A DNA stretch of 24,916 bases. Source: a virus. The notes under the pieces were generated by a model. It searched no databases, was not told the origin of the DNA, and saw only the letters and a list, made by a program, of their open reading frames with translations. This document shows, piece by piece, positions 4,625-18,008 of the stretch (its first letter is position 1; every line of letters begins with the position of its first letter). The stretch covers positions 1 to 24,916 of the IMG/VR virus record IMGVR_UViG_3300011013_000087, one strand, 5' to 3'. The translations under genes and the position numbers were made by a program.

Positions 4625-5268
4625 GTTCTTGGCCTCGTAGGTAGTCCTTTGCGATAAGCATCTGAGTTTTCGCGAGCCTCTCCATAATCTTTTAATCGTT
4701 CTAAAGACTGTAAAAAACGATCTTGATAGGTTTTCATTAAGTCTGGTTCACCTTTCATATAAATATTTGCTTCAATTAAACTTCCATAAAGCATTGCGTT
4801 TGGAGCGTTAGTACTTAGCCATGTTGTTCCGCTATCTCCCGCCGCAGTTAAACTAGCGGGTCTATAAAAATAATGCAGTTCTGCGACAGCATTTGCACTA
4901 GGCGTAGGCGCTAAAATAAAATTGTTTATATCAAAATAAGCGTAATATTTTGGAACACCTGTAGTAGCTGAATTTGGATTTACAGATTGTATAAAGTTAA
5001 CGTCTTTTTCTAATAAAAATTCTTTGTTAGAAGAATCTACAACAGATAAACTAAAAGAAGCTAAATAATCACTAGGAACAGCTAAATATTGATTGTCTGC
5101 GGTGACTGTTCCTGTCACATTTTTACGAAAATATTGTAAGTCAATAGAATTTAAAATAGTTTGTTCGGCTGTTTTTATAAAGTTATCTAAATTAGATACA
5201 AAACTTGTTTCCGTATTGTCTACATAATTTTGAATTGCTGTTTTTAAAGAAGAATAAGTAAAGCTCAT
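4621..5268 (-). CDS. Head-tail adaptor-like protein (SU10/P22 gp4-type family)
   Basis: The protein has 215 residues. It opens with a helical segment MSFTYSSLKTAIQNYVDN and a second helix with FIKTAEQTIL. It continues with a beta-rich middle (FILAPTP and ELHYFYRPASL are typical strands) and ends with helices (ANAMLYGSLIEAN-like and DRFLQSLERLKDYG). This arrangement matches adaptor proteins that sit between portal and tail nozzle in short-tailed phages. It is part of a set with the 302-residue protein upstream, with an ATGA-type overlap (5265-5268) to the preceding small gene and another to the Rossmann gene downstream. No catalytic residues are expected. The family assignment is from memory of sequence pattern. 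Confidence 0.65.
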   Translation of the reverse strand: MSFTYSSLKTAIQNYVDNTETSFVSNLDNFIKTAEQTILNSIDLQYFRKNVTGTVTADNQYLAVPSDYLASFSLSVVDSSNKEFLLEKDVNFIQSVNPNSATTGVPKYYAYFDINNFILAPTPSANAVAELHYFYRPASLTAAGDSGTTWLSTNAPNAMLYGSLIEANIYMKGEPDLMKTYQDRFLQSLERLKDYGEARENSDAYRKGLPTRPRT

Positions 5269-5591
5269 GTTGTCACCACCGTTACACTACCTACAGAACC
5301 CGTTGAAACTAATGGGTTCGGAGTTAAACCAAAATTATAGCGTTGCCCTACAGGGTTCCAACCCCAATTAACGCTTCTTTCTTGTGTTACACCTTGAGGG
5401 GGTCTGGCATTTTGAAGAGCTTGTGGATCAGAAACAGTTCTAAACGGACCTAATTGTGGTTGTTTTGGTTCAAACTCATCTTTTCCTACAAGCAATCCGT
5501 TCCATTCTTTTCGCATATCTTTATAAGCGTATCTAAAACCAGACCGATCCGATATTGCATAAGCATTTTTTCCGCTGGCATATTTACTCAT
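5265..5591 (-). CDS. Conserved small phage structural or assembly protein
   Basis: The protein has 108 residues. The N-terminal half carries a striking motif, SDRSGFRYAYKDMRKEWNG followed by LLVGKDEFEPKQPQ, that I recall from many marine phage genomes, always between connector genes. The second half is rich in proline, glycine and asparagine and ends in a V/T strand, so it may be partly extended or disordered. It sits between the two adaptor-like genes with 4-nt and 1-nt overlaps, indicating strict co-translation with them. A role in neck or tail assembly is inferred from this location. No biochemical activity can be read from the sequence. Confidence 0.7.
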   Translation of the reverse strand: MSKYASGKNAYAISDRSGFRYAYKDMRKEWNGLLVGKDEFEPKQPQLGPFRTVSDPQALQNARPPQGVTQERSVNWGWNPVGQRYNFGLTPNPLVSTGSVGSVTVVTT

Positions 5592-6499
5592 TACACGCTC
5601 CCAAGATAATTAACTTTTGGAACAACTGTAAACGAAGCTCTATCCCTATCTTCTGTAGCCGCGCGTTCAAATTCTTCTTCGTACAAAGCTTTTAAAATTT
5701 GAATCCTATCGGGCGCTCTTTTCATAGAAATATAATACGCTAACCCTGCGGCTAAACAAGGATAAAACCTAAATGGTAAATCTAATGTATTTGTATATAA
5801 ATCAGCGTCGTCCATTCGAGTAAGCCTGTTAAACTTAATTATATCAGTGTCATTTTCTGGCGCAGGCCACACTTTCAAAACAGGTGTTATTTGCCTATCT
5901 AAAAAATATTGAGTAATCCTACCAGTCGAAGATTTAGTGGGTATATTAATAAAAGCTTCTCTACTAACACGATCAATACTTAAATCAGTGGAATCTCTCG
6001 TTATCACCGCAGATAATATATCTATTGTACTGTTTGTATTAGAAAAATCTACTGCCGCAGAAACTGTAGTAGACGTTCCGCTAGTGCCTCCTGTAATTGT
6101 TTCTCCAGAAACAAACGTCCCTACTGGTATTGTTATAGCTAAAGTATTAGCCTCTAAATCTCCTACAGAAGATGTCGGTAAATTTGTTATCGTAGCAGTT
6201 GCACTGCTAGTTCCGCCAGTTATAGTCTCTCCAACAGTAAAACCTGCGTGAGAAGCAACTGTCATAATAAGGATGCCTGCGGGATATTCTGTAACACCTG
6301 TTGCAGTAACAAGAGATGTTTCTGTAATAGTCCATTGATTAAGGCCCCGATTACCCCACTCTGCAAGCATTAAATTAAGAGATCTTCTTGCACTTTTTAA
6401 ATCATAACCTGTGCGAACTTCTAAACCGCAACGTTCAAAAGCTTCTTCAACATAATCTGCTACGTCTAATTCAAAGTTTTTTGATCCCGATACTGCCAT
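5591..6499 (-). CDS. Head-tail adaptor (P22 gp4-like) with an inserted repeat domain
   Basis: The protein has 302 residues. Residues 10-60 (DVADYVEEAFERCG, SARRSLNLMLAEWGNRGLNQW) and 160-290 (ILSAVITRD, IDRVSREAFINIPTKS, FLDRQITPVLKVWPAP, then C-terminal helices) give the classic podovirus tail-accessory/adaptor pattern, which joins portal to tail. Between them, residues about 75-155 contain a Thr/Gly/Ser-rich insertion with two copies of GETITGGTS (90-98 and 132-140). The family normally passes directly from the TEY strand to the DILSAVI strand. The start has a GGGGTAACC Shine-Dalgarno. It is translated just after a small membrane protein and 1 nt overlapping the next gene. Adaptor identity is fairly sure; the insert's function is unknown. 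Confidence 0.75.
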   Translation of the reverse strand: MAVSGSKNFELDVADYVEEAFERCGLEVRTGYDLKSARRSLNLMLAEWGNRGLNQWTITETSLVTATGVTEYPAGILIMTVASHAGFTVGETITGGTSSATATITNLPTSSVGDLEANTLAITIPVGTFVSGETITGGTSGTSTTVSAAVDFSNTNSTIDILSAVITRDSTDLSIDRVSREAFINIPTKSSTGRITQYFLDRQITPVLKVWPAPENDTDIIKFNRLTRMDDADLYTNTLDLPFRFYPCLAAGLAYYISMKRAPDRIQILKALYEEEFERAATEDRDRASFTVVPKVNYLGSV

Positions 6500-11691: not shown

Positions 11692-12138
11692 TTATAAATG
11701 TAAAATATCTTCAGGGTCAGCTATTTTAGCTAAAACCTCGTCGTCATTTAAAATACGAACCTCGCCACCATCTATTTGAAAACGAGATCCAGCATAACGT
11801 GCAAACATTACCCAATCTTTTTCCGCGCACCATGCGCCTGATGGAAATTTTTCAGGATCTTTGTAAGCTAAATCGCCTACTTTAAGCACATACCCCACTT
11901 GCGTGGATATTTTTTGTTGATCTACAACAGAGTCTGGCAATAAAATACCACCGTCTGTCTTACCGTGACCTTTGTACGGAAGAATTAAAATTCTCCATCC
12001 TGTAGGAGAAGGTAGTCGATCTAAAAGGGTTTTTCCTATTGCTTCTGGATTTAAGCTAGGTTTTTCTTGATATGCTGCGGCAAGGTTTTTAACGCCTTCT
12101 TGTGCCGCCGTTAAGTTCACTTTTTCTGGTTCACTCAC
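11692..12138 (-). CDS. groES: GroES-like co-chaperonin (chaperonin-10 family)
   Basis: The protein has 148 residues. The chaperonin-10 core spans about residues 45-140: WRILILPYK strand, mobile loop with KGHGKTDGGILLPDS (56-70), QVGYVLKVG (80-88), WVMFARYAGSRFQIDGGE (109-126) and the final strand DDEVLAKI. These match the E-K-T-x-G-G-I-L-P, G-x-V-x-x-V-G and Y-A-G signatures of GroES. The N-terminal 40 residues are an extra helical extension not usual in bacterial GroES. A GTG start follows AGGAG by 7 nt. Phage co-chaperonins such as T4 gp31 replace host GroES during capsid folding. Lying immediately upstream of scaffold and capsid genes, this one probably helps the host GroEL fold the capsid protein. 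Family call is strong. Confidence 0.9.
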   Translation of the reverse strand: MSEPEKVNLTAAQEGVKNLAAAYQEKPSLNPEAIGKTLLDRLPSPTGWRILILPYKGHGKTDGGILLPDSVVDQQKISTQVGYVLKVGDLAYKDPEKFPSGAWCAEKDWVMFARYAGSRFQIDGGEVRILNDDEVLAKIADPEDILHL

Positions 12139-12400: not shown

Positions 12401-12913
12401 TTAATCCATCATTTCCAAAGAAGCTTGCATTGTTTCCTTGTTTCTACGGCTCCATCCTCTACCAAAAGTGTCAAAAGTACCTAAACTTTCGTAAAACATT
12501 TGTCGTTGACTATAAATTTCTTCTATTAAATCTTCTGGGCTGTGATTTGATACTAAGGCAAGTGTAGCAGGTCCAATTGCACCGTCTTCTGTTGCGCCTA
12601 CAATTCTTTGTAAAGCTTTTGCTGCTCTACCTGTTCCAGAATTTACCGCCCAATCAAAAATAGAAAAATCAACGCCAGAATCTAACGAGTTACATTTACA
12701 CCGATCCCAATAGTTTCTTTTGTATATTGGAGCAACCTCTTCTTTTGTAAGATCTCGCATTTCTTGTTCAGATACTTCACGCTCAACCCACTCTTCGTAT
12801 ACTTTCTTAGTAACACCTAAATTTGTAATTCCCCCGGGATCATCCGGATGATTTACAAAGCCGCCTTCGTGTTCTAATAACATTTCTAAGCAATGGTCAT
12901 AATTTTTATTCAT
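12401..12913 (-). CDS. Endolysin, glycoside hydrolase 108-type lysozyme
   Basis: The protein has 170 residues. The N-terminal domain has LLEHEGGFVNHPDDPGG (catalytic Glu16 in the HEGG motif), then TNLGVTKKVYEEW and YKRNYWDRCKCN, the pattern of GH108 muramidases. The C-terminal part has FDWAVNSGTGRAAKALQRIVG and EDGAIGPATL, which matches the predicted peptidoglycan-binding domain (PG_binding_3) that follows GH108. There is no signal peptide, so release through holin pores is expected, and a holin gene is directly upstream and ends 1 nt before the start. The ribosome site AAGGAAA lies within the holin's last codons. It cleaves cell-wall glycan for host lysis. The family call is firm. Confidence 0.9.
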   Translation of the reverse strand: MNKNYDHCLEMLLEHEGGFVNHPDDPGGITNLGVTKKVYEEWVEREVSEQEMRDLTKEEVAPIYKRNYWDRCKCNSLDSGVDFSIFDWAVNSGTGRAAKALQRIVGATEDGAIGPATLALVSNHSPEDLIEEIYSQRQMFYESLGTFDTFGRGWSRRNKETMQASLEMMD

Positions 12914-13372
12914 CTATAATTTCCTTGCTTTATCAATAGCCCTTGACCCAAACCAAAAACTTAGAATTGCTGCAAAGATGGCTTTCGTTTCTTGGTCCCA
13001 CAAAATGTTTATTGCTTCTGAAAAATCAGTTCCTGTTTTTAAAGCTTCCATCAGCAAAGTAACTTCTATGGTGGCAAAGAGAATAAAAAAAGCGTAGGTT
13101 ATCACTGGACGTACAGATTTCTGTAGTCCTGAAATAAAGCCAGTTCCTTTATTAATACTAATGTCGTGCTGTATTAAGCGGTCATGCTCTTTATCAGCAC
13201 CCATAGTTTCATACATGCGTAAGTCTTGGTCATAACCAGCGGCCCGTAATTCAGCCATTGCCTTCATTTTTTCTAACTCATGTTTGTTGTTTTGTTTACG
13301 AGCAAATGAGTCTGTAATCGCTGGAACAGCCGATGTGGCAAATCCCAATACAGAACCTAAAATTGACAACAT
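12914..13372 (-). CDS. Holin (3-TM phage/GTA-type holin family)
   Basis: The protein has 152 residues. It starts MLSILGSVLGFATSAVPAI (first, weakly hydrophobic segment), followed by a charged helix with KHELEKMKAMAELRAAG. Then comes SVRPVITYAFFILFATIEVTLLM (TM, about 87-110) and FAAILSFWFGSRAID (third membrane segment, about 133-147). The order, the VRPVITY motif and the FWFG-R ending match 3-TM holins of tailed phages and gene-transfer agents. It makes inner-membrane lesions that time lysis. The gene is immediately upstream of the endolysin. GGGAAGG, embedded in the end of the previous small gene, is its ribosome site. Confidence 0.85.
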   Translation of the reverse strand: MLSILGSVLGFATSAVPAITDSFARKQNNKHELEKMKAMAELRAAGYDQDLRMYETMGADKEHDRLIQHDISINKGTGFISGLQKSVRPVITYAFFILFATIEVTLLMEALKTGTDFSEAINILWDQETKAIFAAILSFWFGSRAIDKARKL

Positions 13373-13373
13373 T

Positions 13374-13535
13374 TTATGCCTTCCCTTTTTTCAAATGTGT
13401 TTTTTGTATTTTAAAAGAAGCTCGTTTAACGGCTCCTGTATGAGGCTTGTAATCACCTTTCATTAAATTATACCCCGAACCAGATTTCATCCAATGAAAT
13501 CCTTTTGGAGCAGCTACCGTTTTTACTTTTGCCAT
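13374..13535 (-). CDS. Small basic conserved phage protein
   Basis: The protein has 53 residues, starting MAKVKTVAAPKGFHWMKSG, with pI clearly basic (about 13 Lys/Arg, few acidic residues). The PKGFHWMK-x-G-x-x-YNLMKGDY core is familiar to me from small unannotated proteins in marine phages. There are no Cys or membrane segments. The start has TAGGAGAAA at a good distance. It sits between the CxC peptide and the holin, and its last codons carry the holin's Shine-Dalgarno, so it is part of the lysis-region transcript. Basic charge could mean nucleic-acid or membrane-surface contact, but that is only a guess. Confidence 0.65.
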   Translation of the reverse strand: MAKVKTVAAPKGFHWMKSGSGYNLMKGDYKPHTGAVKRASFKIQKTHLKKGKA

Positions 13536-13549
13536 TTGTTTCTCCTATT

Positions 13550-13642
13550 TCATTTATCTTTTCTTCGCTTGCAAATACATTGGTCAATACAAGCGCAGGT
13601 GTCCTGACAGATACATTTCTCACCGCATTTACAATTTATCAT
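13550..13642 (-). CDS. 30-residue cysteine-rich peptide with a perfect CxC-x3 repeat
   Basis: The ORF encodes 30 residues, with Cys at 4, 6, 10, 12, 16, 18, 22 and 24: four copies of C-x-C-x-x-x at an exact 6-residue period, followed by a basic tail KRRKDK. Eight cysteines in 30 residues in perfect register are hard to explain by chance. AGGAAA precedes the ATG by about 8 nt. It starts 11 bp after the EF-hand gene's stop and ends 15 bp before the next gene's start, so it fits a gap otherwise empty. Paired CxC motifs are characteristic of metallothioneins and of some metal-binding peptides; this could sequester Zn(II), Cu(I) or Cd(II) or be a small disulfide knot. There is no signal peptide, so it probably acts in the cytoplasm. 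I do not recognise a named family. Confidence 0.75.
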   Translation of the reverse strand: MINCKCGEKCICQDTCACIDQCICKRRKDK

Positions 13643-13652
13643 ACATTATTTC

Positions 13653-13973
13653 CTATTTCATTTTTGTTTTTGATATAGCAGAACCTGTTATATATGCCGC
13701 AACAATACCAGTGTTTGCAATTAAAAAGGTGGATAAAACAGGAGATACTGTTTCCATCCTGTCAAGAGGAACTATCGGAAGTAACAACAATGCTACGCCT
13801 GCAATAGAAACAACCATAGAAACCAACGCCATCATTCGTTGCGTGTCGGCCTGCTTATCCTCGTTTTCAAGCCTAATCCACATTGCATGGCGATCCATCT
13901 CCTCGTCTGTAACAACGCCATCGCCGTCAGCATCCGCTACAGAATACTTACTGTTTTTTTGCAACTTTTTCAT
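13653..13973 (-). CDS. EF-hand plus two-TM small membrane protein
   Basis: The protein has 106 residues. Residues 14-25 form a canonical EF-hand calcium loop: Asp14, Asp16, Asp18, Gly19, hydrophobic 21, Thr22 and Glu25. A short charged helix follows, and then two hydrophobic segments, about 47-68 (MMALVSMVVSIAGVALLLLP) and about 77-97 (STFLIANTGIVAAYITG), ending in a Lys-rich tail. Only one EF-hand loop is present; such loops normally pair, so it may dimerise or act as a structural calcium site. AAGGA at good distance precedes the ATG. It is located among small membrane genes in the lysis region and may be a holin-associated or regulatory membrane protein. Function is unknown. Confidence 0.75.
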   Translation of the reverse strand: MKKLQKNSKYSVADADGDGVVTDEEMDRHAMWIRLENEDKQADTQRMMALVSMVVSIAGVALLLLPIVPLDRMETVSPVLSTFLIANTGIVAAYITGSAISKTKMK

Positions 13974-14279: not shown

Positions 14280-14381
14280 TTAAATGCAGGGAGGAGTACA
14301 CATCGCTTTATCTACCCCATAAAATATTATGACAATGAATATTACCAGTGCCAACCCTATCCATATCCATTTGTTTTTCAT
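14280..14381 (-). CDS. 33-residue single-TM peptide
   Basis: The sequence starts MKNKWIWIGLALVIFIVIIF, a short basic N-terminus and a 17-residue hydrophobic core, and ends with a short tail holding two Cys (MCTPPCI). The ATG overlaps the TGA of the upstream coiled-coil gene (ATGA), and the TAA touches the next ATG. Such tight placement between two membrane-type genes argues for a real small gene even though it is very short and has no clear Shine-Dalgarno. It could be an inner-membrane lysis accessory. No family is recognised. Confidence 0.55.
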   Translation of the reverse strand: MKNKWIWIGLALVIFIVIIFYGVDKAMCTPPCI

Positions 14382-15124
14382 TTTGACATTCCAGACAAAG
14401 GATTTTCCAATGCCTTCCTTATTTTAGTGTCTAAATCATTTTTAAGTTGTTCTATTAACTCTCTATTTTCTTGTAGCATATTTTCTATCATTGTACGATT
14501 TTCTTTGGACAATTTATCCATCATCGCTTGTGTCTCTGCTATTTTAGTATCTAAACGATCTACCATTTTATCTCGACGCTCTTCAGAACTAGCTATTAAT
14601 CCTCTAACAATAGTTACATTATCTGAACTAACTTTATTAACATCTTCTACCGACTGCCTATTTCTTGCGTCTTGTTTTTCAAGTCGATCTTCTTGCTTAC
14701 TTAAATTATCGTTCAATTTATCTGATGTCACCTCAATATGATTGTTTAATTCAGCTACATCTTGGTTCAAATCCATCCGTAAATCGTGAAGATCAGTTTG
14801 AAGGTTTGCAGATATTTCTTTGACACTATTAATTTGTTCACGAATAACTGCCGAAGTCGCCTCGTCAACTTCTTTTAACAGGCTAAACTCTTGCTCAACC
14901 ATTTTAAGCTCTGCATTTGTCTCACTGATGTGAGATTCTACCCATCCCATGTCAGGGCTTACATATTCCTGCACGGCCTCTTTCATGTCTTCGTAATCTT
15001 TGTAAAATTCAAAAACCGCCCAAGATCCTCCGGCCAGTGTACCCATCAAAGGTAAGATCCAAATAAGCTTACCAAGCAAACCTTTGCCAGATACCTTTAC
15101 GCCACCATACTCTACTTCAGCCAT
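14378..15124 (-). CDS. Membrane-anchored long coiled-coil protein
   Basis: The protein has 248 residues. The N-terminus MAEVEYGGVKVSGKG is followed by one membrane segment (about 16-38: LIWILPLMGTLAGGSWAVFEFY). A continuous, highly charged, heptad-rich coiled coil runs from about 60 to 240 (for example EEFSLLKEV, NLQTDLHDLRMDLNQ). A type II (N-in) anchor with a periplasmic coiled coil resembles inner-membrane spanins or tail-length rod proteins. However, inner-membrane spanins are usually shorter, and the partner lipoprotein in this window lies six genes away in transcription order. It overlaps the nuclease gene by 8 nt and the 33-residue peptide by 4 nt. The start has AAGGAC at good distance. 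Role in lysis or envelope disruption is a hypothesis. Confidence 0.7.
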   Translation of the reverse strand: MAEVEYGGVKVSGKGLLGKLIWILPLMGTLAGGSWAVFEFYKDYEDMKEAVQEYVSPDMGWVESHISETNAELKMVEQEFSLLKEVDEATSAVIREQINSVKEISANLQTDLHDLRMDLNQDVAELNNHIEVTSDKLNDNLSKQEDRLEKQDARNRQSVEDVNKVSSDNVTIVRGLIASSEERRDKMVDRLDTKIAETQAMMDKLSKENRTMIENMLQENRELIEQLKNDLDTKIRKALENPLSGMSK

Positions 15125-15524: not shown

Positions 15525-17228
15525 CTACTCATACTGACTGTTTATTAAACTATTCATTTTTTGACTAGAACCCACTGTTAATAAGTATGCTGCCATATTA
15601 TTGTCTGATAATACAGCATCGGGCACAGTTGCGCTAGAAAAAAATCCCGGTATATCTTTTTGTAATTTTTGAGCGCTAAAAAATGATTTAGTATCAGCTA
15701 TAACATTCATAACAATAAGAGTTTTAAGTTGGTTGGTGGTATCATACCTACCTTTATCTCCCATTTTTTTTACAATTTTAGATCCAGCTTTTTGTTTTTC
15801 TTCTTTTTTTTGTTGTTTAGTTTTAGGCTTACTTTCTTTTTTAGGTGCTACCTTTATTTCTTTTTCAGGCTCTTCTTTTACTTCTTCTGGTTCTTCTTTA
15901 GGCTCTTCTTTTACTTCTTCTTTAGGCTCTTCTTTAACCTCTTCTGATTCTTCTTTTACTTCCTCTGTCTCCTCTTGAGGTTCATCCACCGTTTCTTCTA
16001 CAGGCTCTTCCACCGTTTCAGGCTCCGTATTGTTTTCCGAAACAGTTTCTACAGGCTCTGGTTCGGGCTCTACCGCAGCTACCTCTACTTCCTCTACAGG
16101 GGCCTCAACCTCAATATCAGGTTCCACATTAGTGTCTGGAGAGGGCATTAGATCCATTTCCATTTCCATCTCAACTTCCACCACGGTAATTGGAGTGTCC
16201 ATCGTAATTTCTGGTAAATCAAACTCTATGTCCATGTCAGGTATGTCCATGTCAAAATCTAATTCTAAATCTAATTCTAACTCCACAGTATCATATGAAA
16301 CATCATCTATACCCCCGTCATCGATAGGTTCTAATGTAAATCCTCCGTCAGGCTGTTCAACCATGTCATTATTATTAAATATTTCTTCTACTATATCTAT
16401 TTCAACCTCTGTTGCATCGCTATGTAGATAAACGTATTCTTCTACCGTTGTTATCGTTTGTTGTACGATTTGGCTTACAACATTGTAGATTACATTAATT
16501 GTTACGTCGTCAAAGACAGGACCAACGGCTAAATTAATGTCTCTGCCACCCACCTCAACGATAAGTGTTGTAAGACTATCTGCAAAGTCAAATCCACCAG
16601 AATACGCTGCATAGCCACTATTTACACCTGCTGCGGAAAGAACATCTGTTCCCGCAAACTTAACCGTAGACCCGTCTTTACCCGTTATATGCATGTAAAT
16701 ACTGTCACTAGAATCTTGTTTGTCTACTTTAATTGTGTAGTTTGTACGACCGCCTTTTTCTATACTTAGATTAGAAATATTAACTGTTTGTATAAACGTA
16801 GTACCCATGCCACTGACACCCATCGCAGAAGTATTGTTTCCCGACCCTGTTATCATAGCGCACCTATCTGGACCAAGTTCCCCACAAGAGTTACCCGTAG
16901 GCATACTAGCTGGACCCTGCCCTCCCCAATCACTGTCCATATCACCTTCTTTAGAAGAGGATACAAAACCTGATTCCGAAGACAGTATGTCTCCAGAATC
17001 TTCGTTAATAACTGTGTCAGTAGTTGTCGTAGTAGTAGTGACAGTTGTGGTAAGTTCACCAACACCATCATTTTCTTTAGTAACCTCTATACTTTCAACA
17101 ACCGTTTCAATAACGACGGGGTCACACAATCCTACTGTTCCAGTAGGGCAAACATCATTGGCACTAGAGTAAGAGAAGGAACCCAAGTATCCCAAGAGGA
17201 GTAGCCCATACTTTAACTTTTTCTCCAT
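15525..17228 (-). CDS. Exported protein with long acidic low-complexity region
   Basis: The protein has 567 residues. Residues 1-23 (MEKKLKYGLLLLGYLGSFSY, then SSA) form a signal peptide. Residues 60-71 are a Thr run. Residues about 95-275 are a beta-rich domain beginning KEGDMDSDWGGQGPASMPTG, with YTIKVDKQDSSDSIYMHITG and LIVEVGGRDINLAVGP. Residues 316-360 alternate acidic and hydrophobic residues (LDLELDFDMDIPDMDIEFDL). Residues 369-462 are E/P/V/K low complexity with EEVKEEPKEE repeats. Residues 463-490 are K/Q-rich, and a compact C-terminal domain covers 490-567. AAGGAT lies 7 nt before the ATG. I recall the beta domain from marine phages, with no known function. It could be a periplasmic or surface effector, or a virion protein. 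It overlaps the preceding gene by 65 nt. Confidence 0.75.
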   Translation of the reverse strand: MEKKLKYGLLLLGYLGSFSYSSANDVCPTGTVGLCDPVVIETVVESIEVTKENDGVGELTTTVTTTTTTTDTVINEDSGDILSSESGFVSSSKEGDMDSDWGGQGPASMPTGNSCGELGPDRCAMITGSGNNTSAMGVSGMGTTFIQTVNISNLSIEKGGRTNYTIKVDKQDSSDSIYMHITGKDGSTVKFAGTDVLSAAGVNSGYAAYSGGFDFADSLTTLIVEVGGRDINLAVGPVFDDVTINVIYNVVSQIVQQTITTVEEYVYLHSDATEVEIDIVEEIFNNNDMVEQPDGGFTLEPIDDGGIDDVSYDTVELELDLELDFDMDIPDMDIEFDLPEITMDTPITVVEVEMEMEMDLMPSPDTNVEPDIEVEAPVEEVEVAAVEPEPEPVETVSENNTEPETVEEPVEETVDEPQEETEEVKEESEEVKEEPKEEVKEEPKEEPEEVKEEPEKEIKVAPKKESKPKTKQQKKEEKQKAGSKIVKKMGDKGRYDTTNQLKTLIVMNVIADTKSFFSAQKLQKDIPGFFSSATVPDAVLSDNNMAAYLLTVGSSQKMNSLINSQYE

Positions 17229-17865
17229 TTAACGATCCTTTTTTAGATCTAGCTTCTTTTCTAGCTTTCTTTTTATCAGCTCTAGCTTTTTCTCTAGCTT
17301 CTTTAGCAGCTTTTTCTCTAGCAGCTTTTATTTCAGCTTCTTTTTCCCTATCTTCTTTAGCTTTTTTTCTTGCAGCTTCTATATTTTCTTTTGCAATAAT
17401 TTTTCCAATTTCAGAGTTTAACGGTATTAACTCTTCGTTCTTTTTCCAAGAAGCCTTTGCATCGTCTCCAATAAAACCCATAAACGGACAAGGAGTACCT
17501 GCCATCCACATGGAATCAAATACTCTTGGATCTCCACAAAGCGTCGAAACCGCTGCCACTTTCATACCCATTGCAAATAAAGAACGCGATAACTTTAACC
17601 TTTCACAGTTCTCATCACTAATGGTAACACCCGTTGCCACACCTAATATTTGTGTTTGCACACTCGCTGCCGCTGCCGACTTACACACATCATTATTACT
17701 TACCACAACGGATGGTGCATTTGCCGTAGGAACGCTTTTATCTGTTACAACAGTAGATGAAACCGTGTTTGTTTCTGCTTCCGCAGGACCGTTTAAAACA
17801 ATGTATGCTATCATTACAAAAGCAAAGAAAACCATTATATATGCTAAGATTTTTTTTAAATTCAT
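17164..17865 (-). CDS. Exported protein with charged helix and C-terminal membrane segment
   Basis: With the ATG at 17865 the protein has 233 residues. Residues 1-30 (MNLKKILAYIMVFFAFVMIA, then YIVLNGPAEA) are a signal peptide or membrane anchor with a possible A-E-A cleavage site. Cys 61, 87, 110 and 126 fit an oxidising compartment. Residues 100-135 contain the conserved-looking GMKVAAVSTLCGDPR and AGTPCPFMGFIGDDAK. Residues 155-210 are a Lys/Glu/Ala/Arg single-alpha-helix or coiled coil. Residues 219-233 are hydrophobic (VWATPLGILGFLLLL). I chose this start because it overlaps the lipoprotein stop (ATGA); ATGs at 17874 and 17883 are also possible, the latter with AGGAAAA. An N-terminal anchor, periplasmic helix and C-terminal anchor hint at a spanin-like role, which is unproven. 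Confidence 0.7.
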   Translation of the reverse strand: MNLKKILAYIMVFFAFVMIAYIVLNGPAEAETNTVSSTVVTDKSVPTANAPSVVVSNNDVCKSAAAASVQTQILGVATGVTISDENCERLKLSRSLFAMGMKVAAVSTLCGDPRVFDSMWMAGTPCPFMGFIGDDAKASWKKNEELIPLNSEIGKIIAKENIEAARKKAKEDREKEAEIKAAREKAAKEAREKARADKKKARKEARSKKGSLNGEKVKVWATPLGILGFLLLL

Positions 17866-18008
17866 TTTGCGCCCCATGTGCATAATTTTCCTATTGAAAG
17901 AGCTTCGCCGCCACAATTAAAATTGCTACAGCCAGACAAAAACACTGCCAACACAAAAAAAACAAACAAAATCGGCAACGTTTTCCAGTATATAGTATCT
18001 TTAGGCAT
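17862..18008 (-). CDS. Small lipoprotein (possible outer-membrane spanin)
   Basis: The protein has 48 residues. A lysine-containing n-region (MPKDTIYWKT) is followed by a hydrophobic segment LPILFVFFVLAVF and a lipobox, LSGC, at residues 24-27 (FLSG|C27). Mature protein would be 22 residues with three Cys (27, 32, 43). Length and lipobox are typical of small phage Rz1-like outer-membrane spanins, although the Pro-rich region common in Rz1 is absent. Its TGA overlaps the ATG of the next gene (ATGA), so the lipoprotein and the charged-helix protein are translated together and may be partners. It is only 2 bp from the preceding gene. Confidence 0.7.
   Translation of the reverse strand: MPKDTIYWKTLPILFVFFVLAVFLSGCSNFNCGGEALSIGKLCTWGAK

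Follow-up and report, generated by a model that had tools for sequence, protein, structure and literature searches.

A thirty-codon cysteine-rich reading frame

The stretch of DNA considered here (the window, 24,916 bases) is a whole IMG/VR virus record, IMGVR_UViG_3300011013_000087, and between two of its minus-strand genes lies a short open reading frame whose translation, MINCKCGEKCICQDTCACIDQCICKRRKDK, runs for 30 residues to a TGA stop (Table 1). The cysteines fall at positions 4, 6, 10, 12, 16, 18, 22 and 24; that is, as four CxC pairs with a 6-residue period. The complete frame, the Shine-Dalgarno sequence and the eight cysteine positions of the original prediction were all reproduced by translation, and AGGA or AAGGA also lies 5′ of the ATG in the peptide reading frames of relatives. 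Likewise, the spacing is as non-random as had been claimed: the window holds a single match to the eight-cysteine DNA pattern and 100 dinucleotide shuffles gave 0, with 3e-8 matches expected from base composition. The 18-bp units are not near-identical as DNA; the regularity exists at the level of the protein.

The genes around the peptide form a compact minus-strand series. The next gene upstream had been described as an EF-hand membrane protein; it does adjoin the peptide in the window, but its EF-hand match is sub-threshold (E 0.018) and it is no fixed partner, since the peptide has different neighbours in most carriers. The nearby holin that had also been proposed is likely; it matches PHROG 6637 (a family of unknown function) clearly and a holin PHROG weakly, although the Pfam GTA_holin_3TM score is sub-threshold (E 0.0018). 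Farther upstream, beyond the coiled-coil gene, two exported-looking proteins with signal-peptide-like N-termini are encoded at 15525-17228(-) and 17164-17916(-), one of them a 567-aa protein with Glu/Val-rich repeats; this block has counterparts in other carriers (for example L204:411-2208) and no significant Pfam match. The gene at 11692-12138(-), judged from its sequence and position, resembles that of a GroES-type co-chaperonin; in Pelagibacter phages HTVC023P and HTVC027P a gene with this annotation lies close to that for the capsid.

Table 1. Features of the peptide locus in the window, and loci of other cysteine-rich proteins in other contigs.
Feature	Position	Strand	Basis
Endolysin, glycosyl hydrolase family 108	12401..12913	-	profile matches
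Likely holin (phrog_6637; weak GTA_holin_3TM)	12914..13372	-	profile matches
53-aa basic protein, next gene downstream of the peptide; position held by a 56-aa gene in empty-slot relatives	13374..13535	-	
Direct-repeat copy 2 (AAATGAAATAGGA), over the peptide stop codon and the next gene's Shine-Dalgarno	13543..13555	-	read from sequence
Family A peptide gene, 30 aa, four CxC pairs, basic C-terminal tail (KRRKDK)	13550..13642	-	translation, homologues
Shine-Dalgarno AGGA, 8 nt 5′ of the ATG, overlapping the upstream gene's stop codon	13651..13654	-	
Direct-repeat copy 1 (AAATGAAATAGGA), 13 bp, upstream of the peptide	13651..13663	-	read from sequence
106-aa membrane protein, weak EF-hand-like N-terminus (phrog_27150), next gene upstream of the peptide	13653..13973	-	
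Coiled-coil protein, one N-terminal membrane stretch (MAEVEYGGVKV...)	14378..15124	-	
Family B peptide genes	L507:673-759, L551:1242-1328, L476:2333-2419 and nine more		
Phage proteins with (CK)n tails	L208:7336-8043, L230:4309-5103, L232:11967-12689, L236:3684-4424		

A conserved peptide family under purifying selection

Its shortness and high cysteine content put the peptide out of reach of BLAST, so homologues were sought by scanning viral contigs with degenerate DNA patterns; tblastn against GenBank phages returned no match, where the BLAST low-complexity filter may mask the peptide. The pattern CKC-x3-CxC-x3-CxC-x3-CxCK matched at least 47 stretches and, once low-complexity repeats and unrelated proteins had been removed, the same peptide, at 27–30 aa, was present in at least 36 IMG/VR contigs in addition to that of the window. 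We refer to it as family A, defined as MxCKCxxKCICKxxCACxxxCxCKxRK with a Shine-Dalgarno-like site, a definition that the window peptide fits; the consensus is MTCKCxxKCICKDTCACIDKCICKERK. Members contain 27–30% Cys and no His, carry a charge of +3, and have an aromatic residue in Tyr-19 variants only. The window peptide is 83% identical to the member in contig L213, and a 16.4-kb record among the carriers has a peptide region identical to that of the window. A looser four-CxC pattern returned mostly low-complexity repeats such as (CK)n, as did a scan of bacterial genomes with a four-CxC pattern, which showed no family A member among the matches listed. Peptides of neither family A nor the second family described below were found in Pelagibacter phages HTVC023P and HTVC027P, in 023Pt_psg01 and DSL-LC04, or in phages Hodr, C72C1, C48C1 and Mosig, several of these being covered in part.

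Sequence variation within family A bears the mark of purifying selection, which answers the Ka/Ks-type check proposed at the outset: pN/pS is about 0.2 across homologues. Over the 22 distinct sequences among the matches listed it is 0.20, and A17, R27 and K28 (window numbering) are invariant even though the search pattern does not demand them; K5, K9 and I11, together with A17, are near-fixed among the cysteines. Since pattern matches are pre-selected for intact cysteines, a second set of loci was fetched without cysteine selection, through the downstream gene of the largest group. The 367-aa product of that gene contains an HTH and weakly matches a metallophosphatase. The peptide is intact, with all eight cysteines, at 24 of the 25 loci holding that stretch; at the remaining one (L368) it is cleanly absent, and the upstream gene reaches straight to the downstream start. 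Across 13 haplotypes of this set, changes in the cysteine codons number 4 synonymous and 0 non-synonymous, as against 8 and 12 elsewhere, with an overall pN/pS of 0.24; the 25 loci are closely homologous and therefore represent one lineage. Comparison of the window with L213, L222, L237, L241 and L204, whose members were found via the cysteine pattern, spans more divergence and gives pN/pS values of 0.09–0.24.

The gene is tightly packed, and its partners vary. In most carriers there is a 1-nt gap after the upstream stop, and the peptide stop and the start of the next gene share the 4 nt GTGA, arrangements typical of translationally coupled phage genes. The coiled-coil protein of Table 1 is encoded one to four genes upstream in most carriers with sequence extending that far. 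The gene 3′ of the peptide encodes the HTH-phosphoesterase in most carriers; downstream lie a holin and a GH108 lysin in the window and L213, a different holin and a GH108-like lysin in L241, and a holin and a T4-type lysozyme in L222 and L237 (lysin types in these last three judged from sequence), and in the remaining carriers a small basic gene follows. These arrangements bear on the idea that the peptide is a thiol/redox factor or lysis accessory whose disulphides regulate the neighbouring holin or endolysin. The peptide gene does stand directly before the holin in L213 and L237, and one small gene away from it in the window. However, what follows the peptide gene in most carriers is the HTH-phosphoesterase instead of a lysis gene, holins and endolysins belong to different families in different carriers, and a peptide with no signal peptide should stay reduced in the cytoplasm; we consider this reading improbable.

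A gene that moves on its own

The carriers of family A are not simply relatives of one another. With the window's terminase as query, no match was found in 16 carrier records (some of them short fragments), and its capsid protein matched one, the near-identical 16.4-kb record. The two longest carriers examined (34.5 and 36.3 kb) have terminases of other kinds than the window's, one closest to that of Pelagibacter phage Hodr (64%) and the other to that of phage C72C1 (59%); the latter carrier also has integrase-like and repressor-like genes, as judged from sequence. When a 3.3-kb region of the window was compared by blastn with five carriers, the peptide reading frame was the best-conserved or the sole clearly alignable DNA, with identities of 86% in L213 (where the endolysin is also alignable, at 75%), 81% in L241, 80% in L204, 78% in L222 and 76% in L237. 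The alignments stop no more than a few bases from the start and stop codons of the peptide.

Close relatives of the window phage present the converse picture. Their holins are up to 89% identical to that of the window, and the peptide was not found in the other 79 relatives fetched through the holin, among the matches listed and within the stretch fetched. In three of them (L130, L131 and L152) the slot is empty and a 56-aa gene directly follows the membrane-protein gene. The window has two copies of the 13-bp repeat AAATGAAATAGGA flanking the peptide, while L131 has it once at the matching junction and L152 has a one-base variant of its start; a single repeat in empty slots and two around the peptide are what would be expected if the unit had been gained, or lost, through short repeats. 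A search for tRNAs as attachment sites or as clues to hosts found none. Stops, frameshifts or lost cysteine spacing at related loci had been named beforehand as evidence against a conserved gene. The peptide is indeed absent from close relatives, but what they show is a clean empty slot, with no stops, frameshifts or lost cysteines. The peptide reading frame is thus a mobile mini-gene of about 90 bp, present in phages with unrelated structural genes.

These observations also decide the most sceptical alternative, a chance reading frame or a regulatory DNA or RNA spacer. The frame is very short and is missing from most close relatives; nonetheless, the negligible number of pattern matches expected, the low pN/pS, the intact copies at nearly every locus of the unselected set and the conservation bounded by the reading frame in unrelated phages rule this out, and we give it practically no weight. 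The claim of a genuine small phage gene is borne out by its occurrence across contigs with fixed spacing, by selection, by tight packing and by the confinement of conservation to the frame. As was also foreseen, a frame of 27–30 codons lies under the usual gene-calling cut-offs and would therefore be missed by routine annotation. The evidence strongly supports the window frame as a real, conserved and overlooked small phage gene.

A second family and other CxC proteins

Looser patterns recovered a second set of phage peptides, family B (MPKCECGPDCNCGDNCQCTDCECKKEEK and variants), in at least 12 contigs. These are 27–28 aa long, with a Shine-Dalgarno sequence, a charge of -3 and eight cysteines spaced CxC-x3-CxC-x3-CxC-x2-CxC. 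Their pN/pS is 0.20 over five haplotypes, and since members were found by cysteine pattern, the conservation of the cysteines is partly by construction. Family B occupies a head-gene module homologous to the window's own, where its neighbours correspond to window genes 5591-6499 and 5265-5591 (36% and 54% identity); the window has nothing at that slot. Against Pfam Metallothio, family B scores below the cut-off (E 0.005–0.007; 16.9 versus 23 bits), and the top four PDB matches are metallothioneins without exception, with insignificant E-values of 0.2–9; it is more metallothionein-like than the family A peptide of the window. That two families of opposite charge share the same architecture makes a common metal-thiolate function more likely.

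Related cysteine arrangements occur in several other proteins. DUF6321-type proteins that start M[AST]CKCK[GN]KCxC are encoded at L246:1302-1634, L248:2792-3130, L249:10848-11384 and L250:4364-4699, with the DUF6321 profile confirmed in L246 and L248. Phage proteins of 235–264 aa, possibly structural, have a conserved N-terminal domain (...YTTNCNCKCKCQCKCKCK) and, following it, long (CK)n tails. Another CxC-rich short phage reading frame (MSCECEIECICEEGCECELDTCECITC...GCPCGDNCQC) is identical in L425 (12248-12448), L428 and L463. Bacterial CxC-x3 repeat proteins (e.g. CKCGEDCKCAPKCDCAPKCNCKK) occur in genome contigs L256, L285, L304, L331, L335 and L342; they have the spacing of family A, apparently independently, and several of the repeats are C-terminal in long proteins.

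Resemblance to metallothioneins and alternative functions

That the family A peptide binds metal can reasonably be inferred from its cysteine layout. Metallothioneins are recognizable by composition (small, about 15–35% Cys in CxC or CxxC motifs, few or no His or aromatic residues), and the window peptide, with 30 residues, 27% Cys, four CxC pairs, and no aromatic residue or His, fits this description. CxC has been described as the commonest cysteine arrangement in metallothioneins (PMC4755600). Nevertheless, family A had no significant match in Pfam, NCBIfam, PHROG or the PDB and matched no metallothionein profile; a Pfam search up to E 10 gave only a chance conotoxin match.

It is informative to compare the family with known systems. 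The fungal family 8 copper metallothioneins of Neurospora crassa and Agaricus bisporus (26 aa, 7 Cys) are alike in size, cysteine content, chain of CxC pairs and, as predicted for family A, cytosolic location, but their pattern is X2-CXC-X5-CXC-X3-CXC-X2-C-X3 (PMC4755600), whereas family A has a strict CxC-x3 period, 8 Cys and Lys-rich linkers, has no sequence match to family 8 and falls outside its pattern. The basic tail, too, is unusual for a metallothionein. The N-domain of plant type 1 metallothioneins has three CxC pairs, CxC-x3-CxC-x3-CxC, a spacing that family A may share, although without a Pfam match; the plant domain has one pair fewer, and the plant proteins add a second cysteine domain and a long spacer. 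Compared with vertebrate and plant Ec metallothioneins (Pfam Metallothio and Metallothio_PEC), the phage peptides are single short domains; family B lies below the cut-off on both profiles and family A matches neither. Bacterial SmtA/BmtA and MymT are small, Cys-rich, cytosolic prokaryotic metal proteins, as family A may also be. SmtA-type proteins have a folded zinc-finger-like core and His ligands, but family A matches no SmtA/BmtA profile and has no His and no CxxC, placing it outside that group. Cys9His clusters have been described in bacterial metallothioneins (PMC7387436). Given the absence of a family match, a spacing unlike that of family 8, and the lack of SmtA-type CxxC or His, we call the peptide metallothionein-like rather than a metallothionein. 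No phage metallothionein was found in the open literature, as far as our incomplete coverage extends.

We also consider a different use of the same cysteines, in which the peptide is a zinc-knuckle-like regulator with two Zn(Cys4) centres and a basic tail (K/E-R-K) that binds nucleic acid or a host protein and tunes late transcription, translation or lysis timing. The invariant R27 and K28 and the near-fixed residues among the cysteines suggest more than a bag of thiols, and the CxC-x3-CxC half-unit is also fused ahead of basic DUF6321 proteins in other phages. In those proteins the N-terminal CKCKxKC[SA]C stands right after the start, as in family A, but has four cysteines only and is followed by the DUF6321 domain. 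Family A, however, matches no zinc-finger or knuckle family, its partner genes vary, and to our knowledge CxC-x3-CxC is not a standard zinc-finger spacing; we regard this reading as unlikely, if worth bearing in mind. A host-directed inhibitor, stripping Zn2+ from a host metalloprotein or otherwise poisoning host metabolism, would fit a peptide without a fixed phage partner, and very small host-take-over proteins are frequent in phages. Host-take-over genes are usually early, though, and this one sits among late genes, which leaves such a role quite doubtful.

The reading that we favour, and think probable, is that family A is a phage-borne metallothionein-like mini-gene whose product forms Zn2+ or Cu+ thiolate clusters and buffers metal late in infection. 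Expressed from a late operon with lysis and adjacent late genes, the 27–30 aa peptide would appear in the host cytoplasm; it has no signal or membrane segment and should therefore be cytosolic and reduced. Its eight thiols may fold around about 2–3 Zn2+ or 4–6 Cu+, so that metal ions and, in second place, oxidants would be buffered or sequestered as host metal homeostasis fails. It would act alone, its ~90-bp unit transferring among unrelated phages; the lack of a fixed partner gene fits a buffer acting independently better than a dedicated chaperone. Compatible benefits might include shielding late protein synthesis from released Zn2+ or Cu+, supplying metal to phage enzymes and scavenging oxidants. 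Counting against the metallothionein-like reading are the facts that most close relatives of the window phage live without the peptide and that the carriers have no metal-related gene fixed beside it.

Hosts and implications

Pelagibacter phages HTVC023P and HTVC027P and phage DSL-LC04 have capsid proteins that share 70–73% identity with that of the window. On the basis of terminase and capsid similarity to pelagiphages, the carriers probably include relatives of phages infecting SAR11, the ocean's most abundant bacteria. It is tempting to generalize, and we do so tentatively, as something that could well prove otherwise: marine tailed phages, pelagiphage-like ones included, may carry self-contained, transferable mini-genes for metallothioneins, in two families or more, that insert at the start and stop boundaries of late genes and control free Zn2+ and Cu+ as the host dies. 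If true, such a role in metal handling would be new, none being recorded for phages in the literature searched, and the peptides, if they bind metal, would rank with the smallest viral metalloproteins and be a first concrete phage tool for metal control. The peptide gene itself is a clear case of a mini-gene in which neither selection nor mobility extends beyond about 90 bp.
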